Shown: piece by piece, positions 34,662 to 36,561 of the stretch
Position numbering within the stretch: the first letter of the stretch is position 1
Layout: every line of letters begins with the position of its first letter
Origin: Aestuariivita sp.
GTDB lineage: Bacteria; Pseudomonadota; Alphaproteobacteria; Rhodobacterales; Rhodobacteraceae
Reading direction: 5' to 3'
NCBI GenBank assembly: GCA_018401465.1
Contig: JAGYKE010000004.1
Location: 496,001-560,000 of the forward strand
Length of the DNA stretch: 64,000 nucleotides
Notes under the pieces: model-generated
Databases searched by the model: none
What the model saw: only the letters and a program-made list of their open reading frames with translations
Told to the model about the DNA's origin: nothing
Made by a program: the position numbers and the translations under genes

Positions 34662-35333
34662 TCAGCCGCCCTGCCGGTTGCGCAGCGCGCTTACCCCTTC
34701 GGCCGCGATGCGCGCCCCGCCCTCGAGGAGGAGATGCGTCTGCCCGTCGATGACCTGCGCCTCGACCACGCGGGCATAGACCTGCGCCTGTTCGCGCGCG
34801 ACGATGACGCCCAGCGCGCTGCTTTCCACCGAAAGGCTATAGTTGCCATAGGGCAGGACACTGCCCGCATCATCGCGCCCGTCCCACATAAGGGTGTCTT
34901 CGCCGGGCGGCAGGCTGCGCCGCGCCACTTCGACCCCCCGCGCGGTCTCGATCACCAAGGTCGCGGTGTCGGCACCCGGGGCGCGCGGTGCCACAACCTC
35001 GATCGGGTCGCCGGCCCACCGGGCCTGGGCCGGAGCACGTGCCTCCATGCCGACCCAACCGGCAAGCGCGGCCATGTTTCCCGTGGCGAGTGCGGCGGAC
35101 AATCCCGCAAGCCGGTCATTGGCGAGAACCTGCTGTTCCACCATCGAAAACTGCGCGAGTTGCGTGGCATATTGGCTGGAATCGAGCGGCTCAAGCGGGT
35201 CCTGATACCGGGCCTGCGCGGTCAGCATGCGGATGAACGTCTCGAAATCCGAGGACAGCGTCGCGGCGTTCGAGGCGGTTTGCCGCGCCGTTGCGGGCGG
35301 CGCCGGTTGGGGTGCAATGCCTTGAACGGTCAA
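34662..35333 (-). CDS. flgD: Flagellar hook assembly scaffold FlgD, TTG start
   Basis: Hook-cap protein needed to polymerise the hook. The 223-residue protein has the N-terminal block FETFIRMLTAQARYQDPLEP followed by SSQYATQLAQFSMVEQQV, typical of FlgD, and a C-terminal Ig/tudor-like part (MWDGRDDAGSVLPYGNYSL). The start is TTG at 35333, six bases after AGGAGG; no ATG suits. The ribosome site overlaps the TAG that would end fliK after correction of the frameshift described there. Confidence 0.93.
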   Translation of the reverse strand: MTVQGIAPQPAPPATARQTASNAATLSSDFETFIRMLTAQARYQDPLEPLDSSQYATQLAQFSMVEQQVLANDRLAGLSAALATGNMAALAGWVGMEARAPAQARWAGDPIEVVAPRAPGADTATLVIETARGVEVARRSLPPGEDTLMWDGRDDAGSVLPYGNYSLSVESSALGVIVAREQAQVYARVVEAQVIDGQTHLLLEGGARIAAEGVSALRNRQGG

Positions 35334-36561
35334 TGCTTCCTCCTACAGTCGGATGTCGAGCCCACCAACCCCATGAAGGACCGGCGCGACAGGGGAAGGG
35401 GGACGGCGCCTGAGCGGGCCGGTCGGACGCGGCGAATGCCACTTCTTCAACCGGGCGGGCCGCCGGGTGCCCGCGGAAGTGATCGGACCCCGGCGCACCG
35501 AAGTTCAGATCGACGTCGCGGAACCCGAGACTGCGAAGGTCCTGTCCCAGATCCGCCGCGTGGCGCCGCAGAAGGTCGAGCGTTTCAGGCCGTTCCGCCG
35601 CGATGGTCACGACCAGCCCCGCATCAGTTGGTGTCAGCGAGAGCCGCAACCGCCCCAGTTCCTGCGGATGCAGGGCGATGTCGATCGTGCCATCCGCTGA
35701 CCGCCCCAGCGCCACCGCGATCTGGGCCGCCACCGCCTGCGGTGTGACCGGTGCCCCGGGCGGGGCGGCCGGACCGGGCCTTGCGCCTTCGGCAAGGGCG
35801 GGGGCCGGGCCGGAAACAAGCCCGGTGTCGGACCGGAGCGACCCCGCCTCTCCCCCGACAGGGGGGAGATCGGCAAGCCGCGAAAGCGAAGGCGGGGGCG
35901 GCGCGACTGGCCCGGGCGCAAAGGCGGGGGCGGCGGTCGCAGGCGGCTGCTGATTCTTCGGAGCAGGCAGCGCGGGCGGTATCGCCCAGCCCTCGGCCAC
36001 GGGGGGCACGGGCGGGTGTCGCGCCGGGTTCAGGGCCGGTGCTTGCGATGCTGCCTGCGTCGGGTTTGCGCGGGGTGCCTCGGACAAGGCGGGGGGCACC
36101 GGTCTGTCCGGCAGCGCCACAGGTCCGGCCTTGTCCACGGGCGCGGGCACTTGGCCCCCGACGGGGTCAGCCGGTTTCGCCGGTCCGTCGGGAAGCCCAA
36201 GGGCAACCACCGGTCGAGCGACCTCTGCCGCAGGCGCTTCCCGAGCGGTCTGGTCCGGGTCTGCCCCATCGTCCGGCACAGGACTATGCCGGTCCGCGAT
36301 GACCGGCGCGACCACGCCATCCGCCATGACCACAGCCCCTGCCGCGACGGCCTCATCCGCAAGGGGATCGGGCGATTCGCCCATATCCTCCTGCACGATG
36401 GCAGCAGCCGGGCCACCCCACGCGGCCTTCGCCGCCAAGGGTGCCCCGCGCAGGGCCGCCAGCACATCGGCAAAGACCGGAAGGGCGGGAACGTCCAGAG
36501 AGGTGGGTGGCGCGGGCGCAACGGGCGCAATATGCGGCGGCGGAAGGATGGGAAACTGCAT
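35191..36561 (-). CDS. fliK: Flagellar hook-length control protein FliK, probable 3' frameshift
   Basis: Secreted molecular ruler that switches export from hook to filament. As read, 456 residues: a Pro/Ala-rich N-terminal two-thirds and the conserved FliK C-domain (about 280-375, with IDIALHPQELGRLRLSL and LRSLGFRDVDLNFG). After residue 390 the open frame turns atypical (SWGWWARHP) and runs 143 bases into flgD. In the +1 frame the DNA instead encodes PVAPVLHGVGGLDIRL then TAG at 35345-35343, a natural FliK ending ten bases before flgD. A one-base excess in the G run at 35398-35402 (C run on the coding strand) would explain it. The gene is probably intact apart from this, or is a sequencing error. 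Confidence 0.88.
   Translation of the reverse strand: MQFPILPPPHIAPVAPAPPTSLDVPALPVFADVLAALRGAPLAAKAAWGGPAAAIVQEDMGESPDPLADEAVAAGAVVMADGVVAPVIADRHSPVPDDGADPDQTAREAPAAEVARPVVALGLPDGPAKPADPVGGQVPAPVDKAGPVALPDRPVPPALSEAPRANPTQAASQAPALNPARHPPVPPVAEGWAIPPALPAPKNQQPPATAAPAFAPGPVAPPPPSLSRLADLPPVGGEAGSLRSDTGLVSGPAPALAEGARPGPAAPPGAPVTPQAVAAQIAVALGRSADGTIDIALHPQELGRLRLSLTPTDAGLVVTIAAERPETLDLLRRHAADLGQDLRSLGFRDVDLNFGAPGSDHFRGHPAARPVEEVAFAASDRPAQAPSPFPCRAGPSWGWWARHPTVGGSIDRSRHCTPTGAARNGAANRLERRDAVLGFRDVHPHADRAGPVSGPA

Follow-up and report, generated by a model that had tools for sequence, protein, structure and literature searches.

The fliK gene of the Aestuariivita sp. genome studied here, which encodes the flagellar hook-length ruler, carries a net gain of one base (about position 35380-35410) that scrambles the short tail required for completing the hook. 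At somewhat better than even odds, we regard this gain as a genuine, recent mutation in the strain that was sequenced. The lesion is an isolated and ordinary frameshift, caused either by a recent mutation or by a sequencing error, and it involves no new mechanism. It lies in a stretch of 64,000 nucleotides of contig JAGYKE010000004.1, to which we refer as the window. The features on which our analysis relies are compiled in Table 1.

Table 1. Features in the window and elsewhere in the genome. Positions are those of the window unless a contig or a locus is given.
Feature	Position	Strand	Basis
fliK as assembled (456 aa; Flg_hook at aa 291-358)	35191..36561	-	Pfam; ORF list; codon usage
flgD (hook cap), intact, TTG start	34662..35333	-	Pfam FlgD and FlgD_ig
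Spurious read-through tail of fliK, past the native stop	35191..35342	-	codon usage; in no relative
Displaced native FliK C-terminus, +1 frame, ...GVGGLDIRL and stop TAG	35343..35391	-	sequence; motif universal in relatives
AGGAGG ahead of flgD (ribosome-binding site), shared in part with the native stop of fliK	35339..35344	-	sequence
Interval of the frame change, net one extra base, holding the C runs 35398-35402 and 35392-35395	35380..35410	-	codon-usage switch-point scores; same-genus relative
Broken gmd	contig C1 ~327940 (locus L133 ~1038)	-	Pfam profile split over two frames
Long repeat-type, secreted-protein-like gene, apparent one-base frame change beside GGGGCC	contig C3 ~680190 (locus L139 ~190)	-	by eye
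IS3-type element copies with overlapping orfA/orfB, placed precisely at contig ends (C1 and C3)	L095 1-1254; L135 18748-20000; L134 18296-19565		

The fliK frame and its displaced end

The product of the assembled fliK gene contains a Flg_hook domain (PF02120; E = 5e-14) that scores 52.3 bits against a curated cut-off of 29.8 and thus identifies it as a member of the FliK family. Its gene occupies the fliK position directly upstream of flgD within a flagellar cluster, and genes for flagellin, FlaF, FlbT, FliI, FlgF/G, FlhA, FlhB, FliR, MotA, FlgI and a FlgK-like protein are found around it; the remaining flagellar genes that we scanned in the window are intact. A search of the genome for another Flg_hook copy yielded no second gene. 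Since fliK is the sole gene of this type in the genome, there is no spare copy that could stand in for it.

As had been noticed in the original prediction, the fliK frame (36561-35191) enters flgD (35333-34662) by 143 bases. The final approximately 66 amino acids of the frame represent an out-of-frame read-through towards and into flgD, and the codon-usage score of this tail is negative, giving it a clearly non-coding character. The terminal signature of the FliK proteins of Rhodobacteraceae, [LVIM]D[LIM]R[LIVFM], is missing from the assembled frame and is present one base out of frame. There, the DNA ahead of flgD encodes PVAPVLHGVGGLDIRL, followed by a TAG (35345-35343) that overlaps the AGGAGG of flgD (35344-35339), precisely at the coordinates that had been proposed. 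The displaced end has undergone zero decay, a finding that fits a sequencing error as well as it fits a very recent mutation. The flgD gene itself begins with TTG instead of ATG, close after its AGGAGG (window 35331-35344).

FliK ends in the Rhodobacteraceae

For comparison, we used the flgD loci of Rhodobacteraceae genomes together with the FliK loci of 295 genomes from this family, with one genome per species; the 3' end of fliK was read at each locus, and the removal of duplicates left 101 distinct relative tails (loci L003-L132). Every one of these 101 tails ends with [LVIM]-D-[LIM]-R-[LIVFM] directly before the stop codon, and, judged from this survey, such an end of FliK is essentially universal in the family. 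The distance between the fliK stop and the flgD start is mostly 3-20 bases, with a longer gap in a few relatives. In the same-genus relative, the gene terminates with ...SGSLDIRL-stop, and flgD follows 12 bases further on. The relatives thereby back the suggestion that a one-base frameshift near the 3' end of fliK separates the gene from a normal end, and a tight flgD junction, in the +1 frame. Relatives that share the Trp/Arg-rich tail and an overlap of about 140 bases had been named beforehand as evidence against this suggestion, and neither a tail of this type nor a large overlap with flgD is found among the 101 distinct tails.

These data also refute the notion that FliK of this lineage genuinely ends in the long Trp/Arg-rich tail and that the match to GGLDIRL arose by chance, a reading to which we attach a vanishingly small probability. 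The frame is indeed open as assembled, but the motif closes FliK in the same-genus relative and in every other relative, the codon usage of the tail is anti-coding, and a chance match would be a rare event: the pattern [GSA][LVIMF]D[LIM]R[LIVFM]-stop occurs just once at the 26,932 stop codons in 764 kb of the genome (six frames), and this one occurrence is the displaced fliK end.

The approximately 40 residues ahead of the terminal motif are hardly conserved among the 101 tails, yet the end pattern is invariant. The family-wide [LVIM]D[LIM]R[LIVFM] end matches the Lon-recognized LDIRI end of the Caulobacter FliK protein.

Site and size of the frame change

A codon-usage model built from 155 long ORFs of the genome favors the fliK frame up to about position 35430 and the +1 frame beyond it. 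When every possible switch point was scored with this model, most of the weight fell on positions 35380-35398, inside the segment 35335-35410 in which the frame change had been predicted. The highest scores fall on the run of four C (35392-35395) and on the bases that immediately follow, and the run of five C (35398-35402) lies 2-3 log units below. Both runs, which read as G on the plus strand, are present as described in the original prediction. The longer run, named there as the likely site with the run of four as the alternative, is situated in the interval of the frame change, but codon usage disfavors it against the run of four, if only by the 2-3 log units just given.

Between an Asp codon shared with the same-genus relative and the stop codon, there are 26 codons in the relative and 26 codons plus one base in the window, and the simplest event behind this difference is that a single net base was gained. 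The linker varies too much for the added base to be pinpointed.

Mutation of the strain or error of the assembly

We infer that a real mutation is somewhat likelier than an assembly error as the source of the extra base. The ends of the contigs coincide exactly with the borders of IS copies, and the IS3-type elements found there suggest a repeat-limited, short-read assembly; as assemblies of this type should seldom be wrong at runs of five bases, the contig ends point to a real mutation. We also count towards a real mutation that the indel in gmd, a second broken gene, is located outside any long run.

The alternative, in which sequencing or assembly introduced the extra base by mistake and the strain possesses an intact fliK gene ending with GGLDIRL nine bases before flgD, is a serious contender that we nevertheless place below even odds. 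It would readily account for the perfect preservation of the displaced end and the normal flgD junction in the other frame. Furthermore, lone single-base breaks are also present in gmd, another conserved gene, and probably in a third gene within about 0.69 Mb of coding sequence, and the reference genome of Caulobacter NA1000 had the same kind of one-base error in fliK (PMC8545394). Against an error speak the completeness of the genome (99.99%) and the lack of any sign of a systematic homopolymer error among about 1,400 C/G runs that are at least five bases long in the surveyed 764 kb. However, our frameshift survey caught 88 of 164 simulated breaks, which renders this a weak argument.

This survey relied on a codon-usage HMM for same-strand frame changes and flagged 13 of them in 764 kb, although with a sensitivity of 54% the true number of breaks is uncertain. 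Most of these flags are ordinary gene junctions (pufL-pufM, a crtD-crtC-like pair, the gene before flhA, and tsaE), an IS3 element at a contig edge that carries its usual shift, and a decayed IS110 element; the idea of a heavily error-ridden assembly was rejected. The gmd gene, encoding GDP-mannose 4,6-dehydratase, is broken by one one-base frameshift, with positions 26-120 of the Pfam profile GDP_Man_Dehyd in one frame and positions 121-324 in the next. The repeat-type gene at 680.19 kb of contig C3 is probably broken by a lone single-base change as well. As read from their translations, pufL-pufM and the apparent crtD-crtC genes (contig C3, ~471736 and ~482117) lie about 14-24 kb before the window, and in view of their presence the organism is probably phototrophic and contains bacteriochlorophyll.

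Programmed shifting and phase variation

The original prediction had also offered a programmed +1 shift and a phase-like mutation as explanations, and our data support neither. A programmed +1 ribosomal shift, for instance at CCC-T, or slippage of the transcript would restore the native FliK end during expression, and we regard this as very improbable. The stretch TCC-CCC-TTC-CCC-TGT does hold CCC-T steps, which are in general somewhat shift-prone. However, the site is devoid of a stop codon or another stimulator, and each of the 101 distinct relative tails is encoded without a change of frame, so that the relatives need no shift and none is conserved; the same-genus relative even has a five-C run of its own nearby and stays in frame. 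Slippage is countered by the commonness of comparable runs (the 764 kb surveyed contain about 6,000 C/G runs with a length of four or five bases); C runs of four to five bases are far too short for transcript slippage. More improbable still is that this species alone shifts by +1 at low frequency within the C-rich stretch, which would equip part of the FliK molecules with the switch-triggering, Lon-recognized LDIRL end and thereby tune hook termination.

Reversible phase variation of hook assembly via the C run could draw on the presence of a five-C run inside the frame-change interval. This is, however, the longest run there, whereas a hypermutable tract comprises about eight or more bases; runs as short as five C are not hypermutable. 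Runs of four or five C are moreover very common in this genome, with 1,110 C/G runs of five in 764 kb, and our literature search found nothing relevant on phase variation of fliK. We consider this explanation scarcely credible.

Expected effect on the flagellum

If the extra base is real, ribosomes translating the assembled fliK gene would leave the native frame once the Flg_hook domain and the larger part of the disordered tail have been translated. The final approximately 16 native codons, ending with GGLDIRL, would be lost, and reading would continue 143 bases into flgD. The resulting FliK protein should keep its ruler and its FlhB-binding core and should be without the five C-terminal residues by which the export switch is triggered. 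The removal of the last five residues (LDIRI) from the Caulobacter FliK protein abolishes its effect on motility and flagellin as well as its degradation by Lon (PMC8545394). For other bacteria, studies as they are cited in that paper report that the last five residues of FliK are required for the export switch (PMC8545394), and in the model developed for Salmonella, these residues act on the C-terminal domain of FlhB and thereby flip the switch (PMC13344023). Motility is lost in fliK transposon mutants of Phaeobacter inhibens, which belongs to the same order (PMC12363192). In Phaeobacter, secreted FliK is present in the medium. A FliK protein without its switch-triggering residues would be expected to cause overgrown hooks with few or no filaments; hence, provided that the base is real, we infer long hooks and poor filament formation as the phenotype of this allele. 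It would then constitute a naturally occurring variant in which FliK is deprived of nothing but its terminal switch motif, a modest point. An automatic annotation would give FliK a false tail and let its gene overlap extensively with flgD, so that the finding is mainly a matter of correct annotation.

Likeness to known fliK genes

The closest parallel is the fliK gene of Caulobacter crescentus NA1000 (CCNA_00944/motD), where cloning and RNA-seq proved the frameshift in the reference sequence to be an error (PMC8545394). In both cases, a one-base difference garbles fliK in the genome sequence of an alphaproteobacterium, and the native Caulobacter end, LDIRI, is the same motif. In the window, the assembly shows a base gained close to the 3' end of the gene, whereas the Caulobacter reference misses a base in the middle of the gene, and the error is proven.

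With the FliK proteins of Rhodobacterales fla1 flagellar clusters, for example from P. inhibens (PMC12363192), the window protein shares the Flg_hook domain, the disordered tail, the gene order fliK-flgD, and the nearby flgN, fliC, flaF, flbT and fliI genes; it differs in that its conserved terminal motif is out of frame. Non-flagellated roseobacters (Salipiger, Sagittula, Pelagibaca) likewise contain a broken fliK gene beside otherwise present flagellar genes (PMC4149021). These genes are described as truncations, whereas the window fliK gene is of full length and only its end is displaced.
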